This document shows, in pieces, positions 1,419 to 17,391 of a stretch of DNA of 43,054 nt (the stretch's first letter is position 1; each line of letters starts with the position of its first letter). Origin of the DNA: Actinomycetota bacterium (lineage in GTDB: Bacteria > Actinomycetota > JAICYB01); contig DATLFR010000151.1 in the NCBI GenBank assembly GCA_035540895.1, positions 1 through 43,054 on the forward strand, written 5' to 3'. The position numbers and the translations under genes are program-made. Below the pieces are notes generated by a model. It was not told the DNA's origin, made no database searches, and saw only the letters and a program-made list of their open reading frames with translations.

Positions 1419-1422
<4 letters not shown>
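1..1422 (-). CDS. malQ: 4-alpha-glucanotransferase (amylomaltase), 3' end cut by window edge
   Basis: GH77 enzyme that transfers maltosyl and longer glucan units between alpha-1,4-glucans in the cytoplasm. The frame is open from the ATG at 1422 to base 1 (474 codons, no stop), so the C terminus lies outside the window. Seen: the family's core region with the nucleophile motif LLRVDH followed by WLHRLFW, and further on the acid/base motif VVGEDLGTVPPEV; a GG-rich substrate-loop region (GVSGGGYDVWRY) precedes them. The third catalytic Asp expected downstream is beyond the edge. The start ATG overlaps the stop of treS-mak as ATGA, so it is translationally coupled and the last seen gene of the glgE operon. 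It would link maltose and malto-oligosaccharides made around TreS/GlgE to longer glucans. I chose this start because of the overlap and because the residues after it match a MalQ N terminus. Confidence 0.9.
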
Positions 1423-4744
<3,322 letters not shown>

Positions 4745-4748
<4 letters not shown>

Positions 4749-6721
4749 AGGTAGGACTCGAAATCCCGCTCCGTCCGGTGGCCGGTGGCGATCCTGAACA
4801 CGTGCGCAGGCACGGACCCCGGGTCGAGCTGGACGAAGTTGTGGTCGCCCTGCCACTGGTACCGGGCGTCGGTCAGCAGGTCGTGCACCTGGTACGTCGG
4901 ATGGGCGTCGATCCCGAGGTCCTCGGTCGGTAGGTGGACCCATCCCGACTGGACGTTGAACGGGTCGAGGTTGACCACCACGCACACCAGGTTCTCGCCC
5001 TCTCGCTTCGTGTATGCGATCAGCTGCTCGTTGTCGATGTGGTGGAAGCGCAGGGAGCGGTCCGAGCGCAGTGCGGGGTTCGACCGGCGGATCCCGTTCA
5101 CACGGGAGATGAACTCGGCCAGGCTGTCCGGGTCCTTGAGGTCCCAGCTGCGTATCTCGTACTTCTCGGAGTGCAGGTACTCCTCCGAGCCCTCCCGGAC
5201 GGGCTCGTGCTCCATCAGCTCGAAGGCGGGTCCGTAGATCCCGTAGCTGGCGCCCAACGTGGCGGCGAGGACGAGCCGGGCCATGAACGCTCCCCGGCCG
5301 CCGGTCTGGAGCGTCTCGTGGAGGATGTCCGGCGTGTTCGGCCACAGGTTCGGCCGGAAGAAGTCCACCACCGGGGGCGACGTGAGCTCGGTGAAGTACT
5401 CCGTCAGCTCGGACTTCGTGTTCCGCCACGTGAAGTAGGTGTACGACTGCGTGAACCCGAGCTTGGCCAGCCGGTACATCACCTTCGGCCGCGTGAACGC
5501 CTCAGACAGGAAGATGACGTCGGGGTGCTCCCTGTGAACCTCGCCGATCATCCACTCCCAGAAGGCGAAGGCCTTCGTGTGTGGGTTGTCCACGCGGAAG
5601 ACCTTGATGCCGCGTCCGATCCAGAACCAGACCACATCGGCCAGGGCCCGCCACAGGTTCTCCCAGTCCTGCGACTCGAAGTCGATGGGGTAGATGTCCT
5701 GGTACTTCTTCGGGGGGTTCTCCGCGTACTGGATGGTGCCGTCGGGGCGCTGCTTGAACCACTCCGGGTGCTCCGCTACCCATGGGTGGTCGGGCGAGCA
5801 CTGGTAGGCCAGGTCGAGGGCGACCTCCATGTCCAGCTCGCGGGCCCGGGCGACGAGGCGGTCGAGGTCGGCCATGTCGCCGAGGTCGGGGTGCAGGGCC
5901 GTGTGTCCGCCTTCGGGAGCCCCGATGGCCCACGGGCTCCCGACGTCGTCGGGGGTGGGGTCGAGCGTGTTGTTGCGGCCCTTGCGGTAGGACGTCCCTA
6001 TCGGGTGTATGGGGGGCAGGTAGACGATGTCGAACCCCATGCCGGCCACGTAGTCGAGCCGGTCGGCGACGTCGGACAGGGTGCCGTGGCGGCCCTCGCT
6101 CCCCCAGGACCGGGGGAACAGCTCGTACCAGGCGCTGAACCGGGCGCGCTCCCGGTCGACCGCGACCTCCAGTTCGCGTGGCCACGTGGTGGACAGGGAC
6201 CGGTCCGGGTACCGGGAGGCGATCGCGGCGACGTCGCTGTCCATCGCGAGCTGCGGGTCGCGGGCAACCCTGTCCGCCCATCGCAGCAGGAGCGCTGCGT
6301 CGTCCCCCGAGGCTCGTCCAGCCGCCTCCCTCAGCAGCAGACCGCCCTCGAGCAGCTCGACCGATACGTCCTGGCCCGCCTCCACCTTCTTGGCGAGGCC
6401 GTACCTCCAGGTGGCGAAGTGGTCGACCCAGGCCTCGACCGTGTAGGCGTACCGGCCCATCCGTTCGAGGGGGAAGGAGCCCCTCCACACGTCGTTGTGG
6501 TCGGGCCGCATCGGCGTCTCCCGCCAGGTGTGGGTGTCGGGAGCCTTCCACCGCAGCAGAACGGCGATCCTGTCGTGTCCGTCGCAGAACGCGTCGGCCT
6601 CCACGACGAGCTGCTCGCCCACCGTCCGTTTCACTGGAAAGCGCCCGGCGTCCACCTCGGGGCGCACGGCGTCGATGACGGCGCGGCGCCGGCCGTCCTC
6701 GCTCGGGTGGTCTGCGGTCAT
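4745..6721 (-). CDS. glgE: Alpha-1,4-glucan:maltose-1-phosphate maltosyltransferase GlgE
   Basis: GH13_3 transferase of 658 residues that extends alpha-1,4-glucans with maltosyl units from maltose-1-phosphate, releasing phosphate. Seen: an N-terminal all-beta/helical region (1-190) as in GlgE, then the GH13 barrel with AWYELFPRS, nucleophile D378 (VFRVDNPHTKAF), acid/base E407 (FLSEAFTRP) and D465 (PNTPDIL), which match the catalytic triad of characterised GlgE enzymes. The length is normal for the family. Start: ATG at 6721 has a good purine-rich site directly upstream (AGGTGAGGGG); an in-frame ATG at 6739 is the alternative. The stop overlaps the treS-mak ATG. A TACAGT hexamer at 6761-6766 on this strand could be its own -10 element, so it may be transcribed separately from the upstream yihY gene. 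First gene of the glgE-treS/mak-malQ operon; a branching enzyme (GlgB) is not in view. Confidence 0.95.
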
Positions 6722-7700: not shown

Positions 7701-8129
7701 ATGGAGGGCGTCCGCGTGAACGGCGGTCTGACGATCCCGATGTCCGAGCTCGAGGTGCGGTTCTCGCGCGCCGGCGGTCCGGGCGGTCAGAACGTCAACC
7801 GCCGGGAGACGCGGGTCGAGGTCGTCCTCGACGTCGCCGGCGCTCCGTCCATCGGGCCGCGTCGGAGGGCTCGCCTGCTGGAGGCTCTCGGCTCCCGCCT
7901 GGACGCCGACGGGCGCCTGCGCGTGGTCGCCTCCGAGCACCGAACCCAGGCCGCGAACAAGGAGGCTGCCCTGCAGCGCCTGGCCGACGTGCTGCGGGAG
8001 GCCCTGAAGCCTCCACCTCCCCCGCGGAGGCGGACGAAGCCCAGCCGGGGCGCCACCGAGCGCAGGATCGCCTCGAAGAGGGCGCGGGGCGAGCGCAAGC
8101 GGGAGCGGTCCTGGAGGCCGGAGGAGTAG
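7701..8129 (+). CDS. arfB: Peptidyl-tRNA hydrolase ArfB (ribosome rescue, GGQ domain)
   Basis: 142-residue release-factor-like protein that hydrolyses peptidyl-tRNA on stalled non-stop ribosomes. Seen: the GGQ catalytic loop in RAGGPGGQNVNRRETRV (about residues 22-38), and a lysine/arginine-rich C-terminal tail (about 103-142: PPPRRRTKPSRG, RRIASKRARGERKRERSWR) that in the family enters the mRNA channel of the stalled ribosome. The length and order fit ArfB rather than RF1/RF2. Two starts are possible: ATG 7701, fitting the leaderless promoter, or GTG 7716, which has GGAGGG 7 nt upstream inside the same coding region; both keep the whole domain. The neighbour yihY is divergent. Another release-factor-like protein (eRF1 type) lies at 16264-17391. 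Confidence 0.92.
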   Translation: MEGVRVNGGLTIPMSELEVRFSRAGGPGGQNVNRRETRVEVVLDVAGAPSIGPRRRARLLEALGSRLDADGRLRVVASEHRTQAANKEAALQRLADVLREALKPPPPPRRRTKPSRGATERRIASKRARGERKRERSWRPEE

Positions 8130-10485: not shown

Positions 10486-12603
10486 ATGGAGTCAAGTTTC
10501 ACCTTCCTGCGCGTCCGGGGCATAGAGATCGGCGCGAACTGGTCCTGGCTCATCGTCTTCGGTCTAGTGGGCTGGACCCTCGGATCGTTCCTGTTCCCCC
10601 AGCAGTACCCGGGGCTCGGGCGCTCTACCTACCTCGTGCTGGGCTTCGTCACGGCGATGCTCTTCTTCGCCTCCATCCTTCTCCACGAGCTCGGACACGC
10701 CTTCCAGGCCCTGAAGGAGGGGATGCGGATAGACGGCATCACCCTGTGGCTGTTCGGAGGGGTGGCCCGGTTCCAGGGGATGTTCCCATCGGCTGGCGCC
10801 GAGTTCCGCATCGCGATCGCCGGCCCGGTGGTCTCGATCGCGATCGCAGCGGCCTTCGCCGGCGTCGCCTGGGCGGGAAACGCGCTCGGTGACCTCGGCC
10901 CGGTCCAGCCCGCGGTCGAGTACCTCGCGTACATCAACGCGATCGTCGTGCTGTTCAATCTGGTCCCCGCGCTCCCCCTCGACGGCGGTCGGGTGCTGCG
11001 CGCGTACCTCTGGCACCGCCAGCGCAGCTTCACGGCGGCCACGCTCTCGGCCTCGAAGGCCGGCCGGGCCTTCGGGTTCACGCTCATAGCGGTCGGGGTC
11101 CTGGGGCTGTTCGGAGGCCGGGGGATCGGGGGCCTGTGGTTCGCGCTGCTCGGTTGGTTCCTGCTGCAGGCGGCCGGCTCCGAAGCCAACGTGGCTCTCC
11201 TGCGCCAGGCGCTGCGCGGCGTGAGGGCGGCCGACCTGATGTCCAGCGACCCGGCCACGGTGGGCCCCTCCGTCTCCATCAGCCGGTTCCTCGACGAGGT
11301 GGCGGGTCCGGCGGGTCACTCGACGTACCCCGTGCTCGAGGACGGCCGGCTCGTCGGGCTGATGTCCCTGCGCCGGGTCGGCGACGTGCCGCAGCACGAG
11401 AGGGCGATGCGGACGGTAGGGGAGGTCATGCTGCCGCTCGAGTCGGTGCCGGTCCTGGCTCCCGAGGCGGACGTCTTCGAGGCGGTCCAGGCGCTGGGGG
11501 AGCCGCCCGGACGGGCGGTCGTCTCCCGCGGCGGCGAGGTCGTCGGGATCCTGTCCGGGACCGATATCCGCCGGGCGCTCGAGCTCCAGCAGCTGCGCGG
11601 ACAGCCTGAGCCCGACCCGGGCGCGCGGTCCGCGGGTCCGTTCGTGTGGGTGGTCGTCTCGCTGGCCATCGCCGCCGCGGCCGGCTTCCTGTACCACCCG
11701 CCGGTCGCCGTCATCACTCCGGGGGACACCCTCGACGTGACCCGCGACATCACGATCTCGGGAGCCGAGACGTCGGAGGTGAACGGACGGTACCTGCTCA
11801 CGTCGGTCCGGCTCGAGCAGCCCAACCTCCTCGGCGTCGCGCTGGCCTATGCGCGCGGCTGGGAGGTGATGTCCATCAATCGGGTGATCCCGCCAGACAC
11901 CGACCCGGACCGGTTCCTCGACCAGCAGCGGGACACGTACCGGCAGAGCCAGATGGTCGCGGCCGCCGCCGCGGCGCAGGCGGTGGGGATGGAGGTCTCG
12001 ATCACCGGCAGCGGCGCCCGGGTCGAGGCGATCCCTCAGGGGGTCCCGGCGGCGGAGGCGCTCGAGGTCGGGGACGTGATCGTCGGGGTGAACGGGCAGG
12101 AGGTCCGCATCGCCGACGACCTGGGAGCGGCGATCCGGCCGCACCCTCCGGGGACCGAGTTCGCCCTGTCCGTGCGCCGGGGTGGGGGGACGACCGAGGT
12201 GAGGACCCGGAGCGCGCCGCTGCCGGAGAACGTGGTCGGGATCGGCGTGTACGTCTCGACCGTGGACATGGACGTCGATCTCCCGTTCGAGATCGAGTTC
12301 CGGCGGCGCGTGATCGGGGGCCCGTCGGCCGGGCTCGCGTTCGCGCTGGCGATCGCGGACATGCTCGATCCGGCCGATGTCGCCAACGGCCGAACGATCG
12401 CGGCGACGGGCCAGATATCGCTCGACGGTACGGTCCGGGAGGTGGGAGGCGTCTCCGAGAAGGCGACGGCCGTGGAGCGCCGCGGCTCCGACGTGTTCCT
12501 CGTACCGGGGAGCGAGGTGGCGGCCGCGCGCGCGGGCGGCGAGGTTCGCGTGTTCGGCGTCGGTTCGTTGGCGGACGCTCTCCGCCTGCTCCGGGCCGCT
12601 TGA
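10486..12603 (+). CDS. Fusion of site-2 protease (M50, CBS) with PDZ and Lon-type Ser/Lys protease
   Basis: 705 residues in one uninterrupted frame. Residues 1-230: membrane metalloprotease of the S2P/Rip3 type with zinc motif LLHELGHAF (H67, E68, H71) and the second motif NLVPALPLDGGR (D166). Residues 245-365: two CBS-like repeats, as in Rip3-type S2Ps. A further membrane segment at about 386-404 leads into a YlbL-like part: the AVITPGDTLDV start after the helix, PDZ at about 505-575 (ALEVGDVIVGVNGQEV) and a Lon C-terminal-type proteolytic domain at 580-705 with S614 (IGGPSAGLAFAL) and K659 (GGVSEKATAV), 45 residues apart as expected for the Ser-Lys dyad. Each half is a known family; the joined architecture is what is unusual. 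Likely role (inference): sequential processing of membrane or envelope substrates. GAGGG precedes the ATG. Confidence 0.9.
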   Translation: MESSFTFLRVRGIEIGANWSWLIVFGLVGWTLGSFLFPQQYPGLGRSTYLVLGFVTAMLFFASILLHELGHAFQALKEGMRIDGITLWLFGGVARFQGMFPSAGAEFRIAIAGPVVSIAIAAAFAGVAWAGNALGDLGPVQPAVEYLAYINAIVVLFNLVPALPLDGGRVLRAYLWHRQRSFTAATLSASKAGRAFGFTLIAVGVLGLFGGRGIGGLWFALLGWFLLQAAGSEANVALLRQALRGVRAADLMSSDPATVGPSVSISRFLDEVAGPAGHSTYPVLEDGRLVGLMSLRRVGDVPQHERAMRTVGEVMLPLESVPVLAPEADVFEAVQALGEPPGRAVVSRGGEVVGILSGTDIRRALELQQLRGQPEPDPGARSAGPFVWVVVSLAIAAAAGFLYHPPVAVITPGDTLDVTRDITISGAETSEVNGRYLLTSVRLEQPNLLGVALAYARGWEVMSINRVIPPDTDPDRFLDQQRDTYRQSQMVAAAAAAQAVGMEVSITGSGARVEAIPQGVPAAEALEVGDVIVGVNGQEVRIADDLGAAIRPHPPGTEFALSVRRGGGTTEVRTRSAPLPENVVGIGVYVSTVDMDVDLPFEIEFRRRVIGGPSAGLAFALAIADMLDPADVANGRTIAATGQISLDGTVREVGGVSEKATAVERRGSDVFLVPGSEVAAARAGGEVRVFGVGSLADALRLLRAA

Positions 12604-13184: not shown

Positions 13185-14753
13185 ATGCGCCGACGGAAGC
13201 CCGTCCCACCCACACGCAGGGCCACCCTGCGCCTCCTGCGCCGAGCCCCCGTGGGGGCCCGCGTGCCCTGGTACGCGTTCTGGCGGGAGCGGGTCACGCC
13301 CGACGCCATCGTGCGTGCCGACCTCGCGCTCTTCCAGCGCGTCGCGCGATGGGACACCCCCTTGGGGGACCGGGTCCTGCCGCGGCTGACCCGGGCGGCG
13401 AACCACTCACGGCTGTGGATGGTCATCGCGGTGGCGCTCGACCTGGCCGGAGGGAGGTTCGAGCGCCGGGCGGCCCTGCGGGGGATGGTCTCGGTGGGTC
13501 TCGCATCGGCGATAGCGAACGTCCCCGCTAAGCTGATCGCCCGCCGGGTGCGGCCCGACCAGACGGGGGTCCCGATGGTGAGGAGGCTGGCCCGGCTCCC
13601 GTCCTCGTCGTCGTTCCCGTCCGGACACTCCGCGTCCGCGTTCGCTTTCGCCACGGGAGCGTCGATCGAGAAGCCGGCGCTGGCTCCCGTGCTCCTCCCC
13701 CTCGCCGGCGCGGTCGCGTTCTCCCGCGTCTACACCGGGGTCCACTATCCCTCCGACGTCGCCGTGGGGTCGGCGCTGGGAGTCGGGGTGGCGTTCGCGA
13801 CGCGCCGCTGGTGGCCGGTGGCGCCGGAGGAGCCGGCCGGGGCCCCCGCGCGCCTGACCCACCTGGCGGACCGACCCGGGTCGGACGGCGAGGGTCTGGT
13901 CGTCGTAGCCAACCCGGGGGCCGGCCCCACCTTCGGACCCGACACCGCCGAGGCGCTGCGGGCGGAGCTCCCGGCGGTCCAGGTCGTCGAGCGGGAGCCC
14001 GACGACGACCTCACGCACACCCTGGAGAAGGCGGCCGCCGGCGCGACCGTGCTCGGGGTCTGCGGCGGCGACGGGTCGGTCAACGCGGCCGCCGCCGTGG
14101 CGCGTCGACTGGGCGAGCCGCTGGTGGTGGTCCCCGGCGGCACCCTGAATCACTTCGCCCGCGACCTCGGCCTTCACGACGTCTCCGATGTGGTCGAGGC
14201 CGTGCGCGCCGGACATACGGTCGCGGTCGATGTGGGCGAGATCGACGGCCGGGTGTTCATGAACACGGCGTCGCTCGGGTCCTACGTCGACCTCGTGGAC
14301 GCCCGCGAGGCGCTCGAGAGCAGGATCGGCAAGTGGCCGGCCGTCCTGGTGGCCCTCCTCCGCGTACTCCGGCGTGGCCGGCCGGTGGAGGTGGAGATCG
14401 ACGGCCGCAGGATGAAGGTGTGGATGGTCTTCGTCGGCAACTGCGCGTACCACCCGCGCGGGCTCACGCCCAGCTGGAGGGAGCGGCTCGACGACGGGTT
14501 GCTCGACGTCCGCATCGTCGACGGGACCGAGCCGTACGGCCGTCTCCGGCTCATGTGGGCCCTGCTGACGGGCACCCTCGGGACGTCGCGGGTCTACCGC
14601 TGCTTCACGACCACGGGGCCCGTCCGGGTCCGGTCGTTGGACGGGCCCCTGCGTCTCGCGCGCGACGGAGAGACCTTCGACGCGTCCGCGACGGAGTTCA
14701 CGATCGGCAAGTCCGACGAGCCGCTGACCGTCTTCGCTCCCCGCCGCGACTAA
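13185..14753 (+). CDS. PAP2 phosphatase-diacylglycerol kinase family fusion protein
   Basis: 522 residues. The N-terminal PAP2-type membrane phosphatase (about 1-215) shows all three motifs: KLIARRVRP (K116-P124), FPSGHSAS (PSGH 145-148) and SRVYTGVHYPSD (S180, R181, H187, D191). The C-terminal half (about 235-522) is a diacylglycerol/lipid kinase catalytic domain with GGDGSVN (294-300) and VPGGTLNHFARDLG (316-329). Such PAP2-DAGK fusions are known in actinobacteria; natural substrates are not established, but a lipid phosphorylation/dephosphorylation role at the membrane is likely. The start ATG has CGGAGG 5 nt upstream. The gene converges with the FAD/Rieske oxidoreductase gene with a 4-bp overlap (14750-14753). 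Confidence 0.9.
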   Translation: MRRRKPVPPTRRATLRLLRRAPVGARVPWYAFWRERVTPDAIVRADLALFQRVARWDTPLGDRVLPRLTRAANHSRLWMVIAVALDLAGGRFERRAALRGMVSVGLASAIANVPAKLIARRVRPDQTGVPMVRRLARLPSSSSFPSGHSASAFAFATGASIEKPALAPVLLPLAGAVAFSRVYTGVHYPSDVAVGSALGVGVAFATRRWWPVAPEEPAGAPARLTHLADRPGSDGEGLVVVANPGAGPTFGPDTAEALRAELPAVQVVEREPDDDLTHTLEKAAAGATVLGVCGGDGSVNAAAAVARRLGEPLVVVPGGTLNHFARDLGLHDVSDVVEAVRAGHTVAVDVGEIDGRVFMNTASLGSYVDLVDAREALESRIGKWPAVLVALLRVLRRGRPVEVEIDGRRMKVWMVFVGNCAYHPRGLTPSWRERLDDGLLDVRIVDGTEPYGRLRLMWALLTGTLGTSRVYRCFTTTGPVRVRSLDGPLRLARDGETFDASATEFTIGKSDEPLTVFAPRRD

Positions 14754-16264
14754 TCGTCGGGTCGGTCCAGGTCGCGGATCGCGGGACCCTGCACCACGTG
14801 GCCTGACAGGTCGAACCTGGAGCCGTGGCAGGGACAGTCCCACGACTCCTCGGCCGGGTTGAAGGTCAGCTGACACCCCATGTGCGTGCACCAGGGGGAG
14901 ACGAGATGGACCTCCCCGTCGGCGGACCGCGCGGCCGCGAGCACCTGGCCTTCGTGGCGCACGACCTTGCCCTCGCCGGGCGCGACGTCATCGAGGCTCG
15001 GCAGGGGACCGAGAGCCTTCACGCGTTCGGAGACCAGCTCCGTCACCGCCTCCACGTTGTGGGTGACGACCTCCGGCAGGGAGGCCTTCAGGTTCAGACG
15101 GACGGGGTCGAACGTCTCCGCCCACGGGTTCTCCCGGCCCAGGATGCGGTCGGTGAGCAGGATCGCGGCCGCCGTACCGTTGGTCATGCCCCACTTCTGG
15201 AAGCCGGTCGCGACCCACGTCCGTTCGCTGCGGGCCGTGGCCCGGCCGACGTACGGGAGCCGGTCCACGGGTTCGTAGTCCTGGGTCGACCACCGGTGGA
15301 GGACCTCGGTCGCGCCCACGGCTTCCCGCGCCCAGGCCTCGAGCGCCGCGTAGCGCTCCCGGGTCTCGGTCTCGTGGCCCACCTTGTGGCCCTCGCCGCC
15401 CACCACCAGGAGCCGCTCGCCGTCGACCGTCAGCGGACGCAGGGAGCGAGACGGCGACGCAGCGGACAGGTACATGCCGTCCGGGATGCTCGCCGCCCGG
15501 ACCGTCATGGCGTAGGACCGCTCGGGCATCACCCGCGCGAACAGGAGGGTGCGGTCGAGGAACGGTATGTGCGTCGCCACGACCACGTGTCCAGCCCGGA
15601 CCGTCCCCCGCGTGGTCGTGAGCTCGCAGGGCTCCCCCTCGTCCACGTCCAGGACCCTGGTCCCCTCGGCGATGAGTCCCCCCCGCGACGCCACCAGATC
15701 GGCCAGGGCCAGGCAGTACCGCCGCGGATGGAAGTGGGACTGGTCGTCGACGCGCACGGCGCCGGCGGAGGGGTAGGGGAGCCCGGTGTCCTCGGTGAAG
15801 TAGGCGTCGACCCCCGCCTCCCGCGCCGCTTCGACCTCGTCGTGGACGTCCTGCAGATCGTCCGAGGTCGGCGCGTACGTCATCGCCGGAGCCGTCTCGA
15901 GGGAGCAGTCGATCCCCTCCCGCTCGACGATCTCGCGCACGGCGCTCAGACCCGCCGCCTGGGCCTCGGCGTACGTGCGCGCGGCCTCGGCTCCCGCCTC
16001 GCGGGTGATCGCGCTGTAGGCGAGGCCGTGCAAGACGGTGACCTTCGCGGTCGTGTACCCGGTGGCGCCGGACACCAGCCGGTCGGCCTCGAGGACCGCC
16101 ACGCTCAGACCCTCGCGCTGCAGGAGGTAGGCGGCGGTGAGCCCGGTGATCCCGCCGCCGCAGACGGCGACGTCGACCTCGACCCCATCGCCCACCGGGG
16201 CGTAGGCGGAGCCCGGGGCGGTATCGACCCAGACGGAGCGGTTCGGACCGTCGAGGGAGCCCAT
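14750..16264 (-). CDS. FAD-dependent oxidoreductase with C-terminal Rieske [2Fe-2S] domain
   Basis: 504 residues. The N-terminal DAO-type flavin domain has the dinucleotide fold VAVCGGGITGLTAAYLL (from about residue 32) and, near 365-385, the FAD-proximal stretch ATGFQKWGMTNGTAAA. The C-terminal Rieske domain binds 2Fe-2S with C459/H461 (CTHMGC) and C477/H480 (CPCHGSRF); C464 and C479 match the pair that forms a disulfide in bc1-type Rieske proteins. The substrate is unknown. The architecture is common in soil bacteria as 'FAD-dependent oxidoreductase/Rieske' proteins. ATG at 16264 overlaps the stop of the upstream eRF1-like gene as TGATG, so the two are translationally coupled. Reading further upstream in this frame would only run antisense-type sequence inside that gene, so I kept the overlap start. 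Confidence 0.88.
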   Translation of the reverse strand: MGSLDGPNRSVWVDTAPGSAYAPVGDGVEVDVAVCGGGITGLTAAYLLQREGLSVAVLEADRLVSGATGYTTAKVTVLHGLAYSAITREAGAEAARTYAEAQAAGLSAVREIVEREGIDCSLETAPAMTYAPTSDDLQDVHDEVEAAREAGVDAYFTEDTGLPYPSAGAVRVDDQSHFHPRRYCLALADLVASRGGLIAEGTRVLDVDEGEPCELTTTRGTVRAGHVVVATHIPFLDRTLLFARVMPERSYAMTVRAASIPDGMYLSAASPSRSLRPLTVDGERLLVVGGEGHKVGHETETRERYAALEAWAREAVGATEVLHRWSTQDYEPVDRLPYVGRATARSERTWVATGFQKWGMTNGTAAAILLTDRILGRENPWAETFDPVRLNLKASLPEVVTHNVEAVTELVSERVKALGPLPSLDDVAPGEGKVVRHEGQVLAAARSADGEVHLVSPWCTHMGCQLTFNPAEESWDCPCHGSRFDLSGHVVQGPAIRDLDRPDD

Positions 16265-17391
16265 CAGAACCGCAGCAGCGCCGCCATGCCGCCGTGCTCC
16301 GCGAGCTCGTTGGGGGTGTGCCGCAGCAGGACGATATCGGCCGACTGCCCGAGCGCGAGCTCGACGGCCTTCTCGGTCATGTCCTCGTGCGGCTCGGTCG
16401 AGGTCCCGTCGATGGGACAGGTCGACCCGCCCGCGCCGACCCAGTCGCACGACGTACAGGCCACTCCGGGGACCTGGGTCCCGGGCTGCAGGATCAGGGA
16501 GCCGACCCGCCTCTCGAACAGAGCCGTGAGCACCCCGTCCGGACCCGCCGCCGCCCCCTCGTTGCGGCCGAGCCCCTCGTTGAGCCGCTCGAGCACCTCG
16601 TCCTCACGGCGACGCTCGTCCTGCTCGATGGCGGGACGGGCGGCCTCCAGGACCTCAGCCCAGGAGGTGTTCTCGATATCGACGTCGAAGCGGCCCACGT
16701 AGCGCTGAGCGAGGTAGTCGTGGAGGTTGCCCTCCACCTCGGGGAGCATCTCCTCCGCGCAGCCGATGAGCAGCCGGTCGAACGGCGACCGCTTGTACAT
16801 CTCGAAGAGGACGTCGCAGGCGTGCTTCACGTGGTCGTCCACGATCTTCTCTATGTGCCGCTCGTACCGCTGCTGAGAGCGTCCTCCCGTGTCGTGCTGG
16901 CCGGGCACGTCGTCGGCCACCTCCGCGCGCTGCCGTAGCTCGTCGCGGGTGCCGCGCAGGATCCGGGCGGTCCTCCGGTTGACCAGGAAGACGCACCAGT
17001 CGTCGACCGGGAGCAGCCCGGTGAGCGGCTCGACGTAAGGGGACCGGTCGACGACGGCCGTCGACTCCACGCTGGCCGGGAGGGGGATCGCCTCGAAGAG
17101 GTCGGCGCTCGCCGAGGAGAAGACGGCCACGGCACGCACGCCTTTCGCGGAGAACTCGTTGTTGAAGAACGACCTGACCCTCTGGATGTCCTCCTCTAGG
17201 CCCTGGGCCGACTCCTTGTCGAGATCCCCGGCCTTCTTCCCGGCCTCGCTCAGCAGCGATTCGATCTCGGTCTGGCGTGCGCCCTCGTTCGGGAGCCGGC
17301 TCGGGTCCAGGTCTACGTAGACGCTCAGTACGTTGCCGCTCTCAACCTTCAGCTCCGCCAGGCGGCGGAGCGTCTCTATCCCTCGTGGCAT
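16264..17391 (-). CDS. eRF1-like (baeRF/Vms1-type) putative peptidyl-tRNA hydrolase
   Basis: 375 residues resembling bacterial homologues of archaeo-eukaryotic release factor 1 (baeRF; Vms1/ANKZF1-type), proteins thought to cleave peptidyl-tRNA on stalled ribosomes. Seen: an N-terminal SVYVDLDP segment (23-30), a VFLVNRRTARI core (134-144), and a GGxSxxR-type loop at 169-175 (GGRSQQRYERHIEK), the place of the catalytic loop in Vms1/baeRF, followed by an RNase H-like fold with DRLLIGCAEEMLPEVEG (205-221). Near the C terminus CTSC...CPIDG (C312, C315, C325) looks like a partial zinc knuckle. The ATG has AGGAGG 9 nt upstream. It is the first gene of a pair with the FAD/Rieske oxidoreductase. What links redox chemistry to this factor is not clear from sequence. 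The family call is by motif and fold order. Confidence 0.8.
   Translation of the reverse strand: MPRGIETLRRLAELKVESGNVLSVYVDLDPSRLPNEGARQTEIESLLSEAGKKAGDLDKESAQGLEEDIQRVRSFFNNEFSAKGVRAVAVFSSASADLFEAIPLPASVESTAVVDRSPYVEPLTGLLPVDDWCVFLVNRRTARILRGTRDELRQRAEVADDVPGQHDTGGRSQQRYERHIEKIVDDHVKHACDVLFEMYKRSPFDRLLIGCAEEMLPEVEGNLHDYLAQRYVGRFDVDIENTSWAEVLEAARPAIEQDERRREDEVLERLNEGLGRNEGAAAGPDGVLTALFERRVGSLILQPGTQVPGVACTSCDWVGAGGSTCPIDGTSTEPHEDMTEKAVELALGQSADIVLLRHTPNELAEHGGMAALLRF

Follow-up and report, generated by a model that had tools for sequence, protein, structure and literature searches.

A predicted two-protease fusion in Actinomycetota that joins a CBS-type site-2 protease to a YlbL-type PDZ-Lon protease

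A shared substrate is normally the only point of contact between site-1 and site-2 proteases, and the hand-over between the two cuts is still debated. In the relay formed by DegS and RseP, DegS acts first. For most site-2 proteases (S2Ps) of the CBS type, we know of no substrate. The general scheme of an S1P cut followed by an S2P cut is known from separate proteins (PMC10202637), and the outer PDZ serine protease SpoIVB likewise precedes the S2P SpoIVFB (PMC11486902).

Here, we analyze a stretch of 43,054 nucleotides from an Actinomycetota bacterium (contig DATLFR010000151.1; hereafter the window), in which a single gene encodes two unrelated predicted proteases joined end to end. The N-terminal part resembles group III S2Ps (MjS2P, A. 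fulgidus S2P, SpoIVFB, actinobacterial S2P-CBS) in its HExxH and LDG motifs, six-helix core and C-terminal CBS pair. Unlike group III S2Ps, which are described without a PDZ domain, the fusion adds a seventh helix, a PDZ domain and a second protease. The C-terminal part shares with YlbL/DdcP/SepM a single helix, a PDZ domain and an ATPase-free Lon_C domain with Ser and Lys 45 residues apart, but an entire S2P precedes its anchor helix and it forms a clade apart from solo YlbL. The order proposed here for the fusion, with a PDZ serine protease outside preceding an intramembrane metalloprotease, is that of the SpoIVB-SpoIVFB and DegS-RseP relays. In contrast to the fusion, however, the two partners of these relays are made as individual chains, and neither SpoIVB nor DegS is a serine protease of the Lon type. 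Each half of the fusion can be assigned to a known family. The initial annotation knew of no description of the fusion, and our searches do not show it to be an already common annotated family: no NCBIfam model fits the whole protein, the best being SepM_fam_S16 (equivalog NF041438) with 100.9 bits against a curated cut-off of 200, and the searched open-access papers held no description of the fusion or of a corresponding operon.

Domain architecture of the fusion protein

The features of the gene are as follows (window positions, all on the + strand).

10486..12603, +: fusion gene, 705 aa, M50 (S2P), 2x CBS, TM, PDZ, Lon_C; stop-free open frame, with 15 more genes of the same layout
10486..11205, +: S2P (M50) membrane domain, residues 1-240, six predicted helices; Pfam Peptidase_M50 1.1e-18
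10684..10698, +: zinc motif HELGH, residues 67-71; H67, E68, L69 and H71 invariant in 15 full-length fusions
10981..10983, +: D166, predicted third zinc ligand, in LDGGR; invariant in the fusions and all sampled solo and paired S2Ps
11230..11580, +: tandem CBS domains, residues 249-365, predicted cytosolic; Pfam CBS 3.6e-13, two stretches
11638..11694, +: predicted seventh membrane helix, the fusion junction, residues 385-403; hydropathy peak 2.13, mean over 15 fusions
11695..12600, +: YlbL-type half, residues 404-705, predicted extracytoplasmic; NCBIfam SepM/YlbL family 6.8e-29 over 388-680, positive-inside counts
11986..12204, +: PDZ domain, residues 501-573; Pfam PDZ_2 9.1e-09
12211..12600, +: Lon-type (S16) protease domain, about residues 576-705; Pfam Lon_C 2.5e-08, Lon structures 8dvh and 5e7s
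12325..12327, +: predicted catalytic serine S614; invariant in all sampled fused, paired and solo homologs
12460..12462, +: predicted catalytic lysine K659; invariant in all sampled fused, paired and solo homologs

All four Pfam domain types of the protein (M50, CBS, PDZ_2 and Lon_C) score above their curated cut-offs, and sequence matches in the PDB follow along the chain in the order M50, CBS pair, DegP PDZ and Lon protease domains. The initial annotation had given the coordinates and length of the continuous 705-codon frame exactly and had placed HELGH, D166 and the S614/K659 pair, 45 residues apart, at the correct positions. The CBS-like region, extra helix, PDZ and Lon-C that it described correspond to the Pfam domains and the helix at 385-403.

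The M50 part combines the features that define this protease type, namely HExxH, a distal Asp in LDG and a multi-helix membrane domain. MjS2P (3b4r) matches it both by sequence (1.4e-19, residues 48-208) and by fold, with a TM-score of 0.82 on target length for the AlphaFold model, which is good through most of its first 370 residues (block means mostly 71-94). SpoIVFB (8vjl) also matches by fold, and its sequence match spans residues 50-187. As in group III S2Ps, the membrane core is followed by CBS domains, with two stretches above cut-off. They match the CBS pair of A. fulgidus S2P in sequence (5g5r, residues 250-368), and the fold of the AlphaFold model matches 5g5x. The PDZ domain at 501-573 departs from the group III definition, in which PDZ is absent.

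The C-terminal half has the membrane helix, PDZ domain and Lon_C domain with a Ser/Lys dyad, and no AAA+ domain, that characterize YlbL/SepM proteases. Its profile picks up the YlbL PDZ structures 2kl1 and 2kjp and, among further matches, the PDZ region of A. aeolicus S2P (3wkl). The spacing of S614 and K659 equals that of S234 and K279 in B. subtilis YlbL (45 residues; PMC6051672).

A stop or frameshift at residues 370-410, named at the outset as a possible refutation, is excluded, as the frames of the 14 other full-length fusions are open across the junction. A sequencing artefact or frameshift is likewise ruled out, since 15 other genes share this layout and none of them has an internal stop. 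We also sought a separate translation start for the C-terminal half. The fusions have no conserved Met at the junction, so its separate translation appears disfavored.

Distribution and repeated origin of the linkage

Among 397 sampled genomes of the phylum, 14 carry the layout of the window protein (type A), in 16 copies distributed over five families (f1, f2, f7, f38 and f42). One copy (G124) is broken off by a contig end, leaving 15 full-length proteins including that of the window. The 14 others are 43-54% identical to the window protein and contain no stops, and H67, E68, H71, D166, S614 and K659 are invariant in 15/15. In the class with f2, f38 and f42 (24 genomes), type A is present in 6/6 genomes of f42, 2/2 of f38 and 2/16 of f2; in the class of f7 in 2 of 27 genomes; and in the small class of the window itself in two of three. 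Two genomes (G167 and G253) have two diverged fused copies each. The type A fusion is a real, recurrent gene family. The proposed covalent two-protease membrane device made of S2P-CBS and YlbL-type parts is supported, with both active sites conserved.

The fusion is usually an addition rather than a replacement, since separate PDZ-Lon copies exist in most fusion genomes: an unfused gene was found in every other fusion genome except G127, G253 and G264. The window genome (G000) itself has a stand-alone PDZ-Lon gene (C142, L171:7697-8716) and a stand-alone S2P-like gene (C63), and one type A genome (G189) also carries an adjacent separate S2P/PDZ-Lon pair (L147). In family f13, fragments in one genome (G028:C46 and G028:C821) are 36-64% identical to the fusion in several separate matches, one piece spanning the CBS/PDZ-Lon junction (335-506); they may derive from a fusion copy that is broken or was poorly assembled. 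Viral contigs gave weak M50 matches only, with PDZ-Lon absent. A scan of genome contigs with exact short peptide patterns returned five solo S2Ps and no fusion, and matches in 194 cyanobacterial genomes at E <= 1e-45 were S2P-only.

The linkage also exists in the form of separate adjacent genes. In the class of G010 (f9, f44 and f69), the usual arrangement is an S2P gene followed immediately, in the same orientation, by a PDZ-Lon gene. Of 30 fetched PDZ-Lon loci (L090-L119), 28 have an S2P immediately upstream, many overlapping by 1 or 4 bases; the two exceptions are L118, which is itself fused, and L108. Four genomes of this class (G097, G353, G063 and G215) carry a second fusion layout, M50-TM-PDZ-Lon without CBS, in single frames of 600-640 aa (type B). 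In f44, a dnaX-like gene is located downstream of the operon in 3/3 genomes examined (L175 in G279, L176 in G118, L177 in G205), and in f9 (G010, G051, G075 and G226) it adjoins a glutamine amidotransferase-like gene. In the paired operon of G118 (L170:2732-3847), the HExxH of the S2P is degraded to RDAAQ and the adjacent PDZ-Lon keeps its Ser/Lys dyad. This S2P is a probable pseudoprotease partner, and the loss of the zinc motif next to a retained Lon dyad suggests that M50 can act as a binding scaffold as well.

In the M50-only tree, type A forms a single clade (97/96), and solo S2P-CBS proteins are closest to it (joint clade 100/97). Paired S2Ps, type B and two solo rows form another clade (97/93). 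A single origin of all linkages is rejected for the M50 half, as a tree constrained to unite every linked M50 fails the AU test (p-AU 0.0031). Since the type B M50 comes from a different subfamily than that of type A, the fusion arose at least twice, possibly three times. The PDZ-Lon tree contains three groups (solo; type A with the unfused window-genome copy; paired and type B), which in this tree without outgroup are not orderable, and a sister relation of fused and paired Lon halves is not claimed. Type B falls among the paired genes. One event for type B is weakly rejected by the Lon half (p-AU 0.023), and the M50 half groups type B (92/92); type B may itself represent two events. The unfused PDZ-Lon of the window genome clusters with the fusions (100/99) rather than with solo YlbL and may be a split-off or a pre-fusion form. 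As type B is independent and lacks CBS, the CBS domains are dispensable for the two-protease arrangement. The occurrence of both enzymes as fused or adjacent genes suggests that they work as a team, and the repeated linkage points to an unrecognized partnership between YlbL-type proteases and CBS-type S2Ps.

Predicted membrane topology

Family-averaged hydropathy and the known helix order of MjS2P and SpoIVFB assign six helices to the M50 part and one more to the stretch between the CBS pair and the PDZ domain, a helix which AlphaFold places at 384-403 with low pLDDT. Mean K+R counts are 2.7 (1-18), 2.2 (72-84), 1.5 (92-106), 3.9 (168-188), 3.4 (228-250) and 2.7 (372-386) in the predicted inner segments, and 0.7, 0.6 and 0.2 in the predicted outer loops. 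The region 404-705 is acidic (24.7 K+R vs 40.1 D+E). The odd number of helices and the K/R counts place PDZ-Lon opposite CBS. Thus, the N-terminus and CBS domains are predicted to lie inside, the M50 site within the membrane and PDZ-Lon outside. The CBS domain of SpoIVFB is cytosolic in the structure (PMC11486902), and B. subtilis YlbL is thought to act outside the cell (PMC6051672). The outer half of the AlphaFold model has no alignment depth and a pLDDT mostly <50, and no conclusions were drawn from it.

This topology speaks against the order of events first envisaged, in which a membrane-bound regulator is released and then degraded. That order needs a cytosolic Lon site, and a PDZ-Lon outside could not degrade a regulator freed into the cytosol. 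A cut outside followed by an intramembrane cut fits better and is the more likely sequence.

A proposed relay and competing readings

We propose that the fusion is a site-1/site-2 protease pair in one chain that performs regulated intramembrane proteolysis, a reading to which we assign a probability of about 0.5. The PDZ domain would bind or check a membrane-anchored client at its outer portion or at its newly made C-terminus, and the Lon-type Ser/Lys site would cut the client outside first (site-1). The shortened stub would then be handed on within the chain to the M50 site, where a cut inside the membrane (site-2) would free the cytosolic portion. An adenine-nucleotide signal from the cytosol may adjust this second cleavage in those members that have CBS domains. 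Protease activity is predicted from sequence, and we infer the cut order, the substrate and the CBS role. The relay is favored because all 15 full-length fusions keep the two active sites unchanged despite the 43-54% identity of the others to the window protein, because the linkage of the two activities evolved repeatedly and because PDZ-Lon and CBS are predicted on opposite sides of the membrane. Such a natural fusion fixes the proteases 1:1, so that hand-over, order and gating might be tested by single mutations in one protein.

Several observations count against the relay. No conserved neighbor that could be a substrate candidate lies beside the fusions, as neighbors differ between families, and the outer half of the AlphaFold model is of low confidence. 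The G118 partner without zinc motif indicates that M50 may serve without cutting. Purified B. subtilis YlbL without its helix shows no protease activity (PMC6051672). Furthermore, SpoIVB cleaves SpoIVFA, an inhibitor of the S2P, and not Pro-sigmaK (PMC11486902), that is, its target is an inhibitor rather than the substrate. This last point also suits a second reading, possible yet clearly not the one we would expect, in which PDZ-Lon regulates the S2P as an outer size filter, like the PDZ of group I RseP, or as an inhibitor cutter, like SpoIVB. CBS-type (group III) S2Ps are without PDZ (PMC10202637) and the fusion provides one, and the PDZ region of A. aeolicus S2P is among the profile matches. 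A mere filter, however, needs no Ser/Lys dyad, yet the dyad is invariant in every fused, paired or solo copy examined.

It is unlikely that the two sites serve membrane clean-up, independently degrading membrane-anchored proteins or remnants from both faces, with the fusion just keeping them together. Candidate targets would be signal-peptide remnants or division inhibitors like YneA, a membrane-anchored inhibitor that YlbL (DdcP) removes in B. subtilis (PMC6051672). The varied neighbors, among which no single signaling partner stands out, and the position of the f44 operon upstream of a dnaX-like gene are consistent with clean-up. On the other hand, such proteases rarely need a fixed one-to-one partner, whereas the link arose at least two times and is an operon in most of one class. 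Neutral read-through of two co-expressed neighboring genes without joint function could be achieved by stop loss, and both type B halves do fall among sequences of adjacent genes, but it is very improbable given that type A extends over five families with both sites retained, that sampled solo members of its M50 subfamily are without adjacent PDZ-Lon within the fetched flanks and that two genomes keep two diverged fused copies each.

Other genes in the window include another fusion, of a PAP2 phosphatase and a diacylglycerol-kinase/YegS-type kinase (13185-14753, +), and a 1336 aa protein with an alpha-amylase/trehalose-synthase-like part and a maltokinase N-cap (1419-5429, -), which resembles known TreS-maltokinase fusions. 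A baeRF family 10 release-factor-like protein is encoded at 16264-17391 (-). A short RF-1 domain protein (ArfB-like; 7701-8129, +) also adjoins the fusion in G002.
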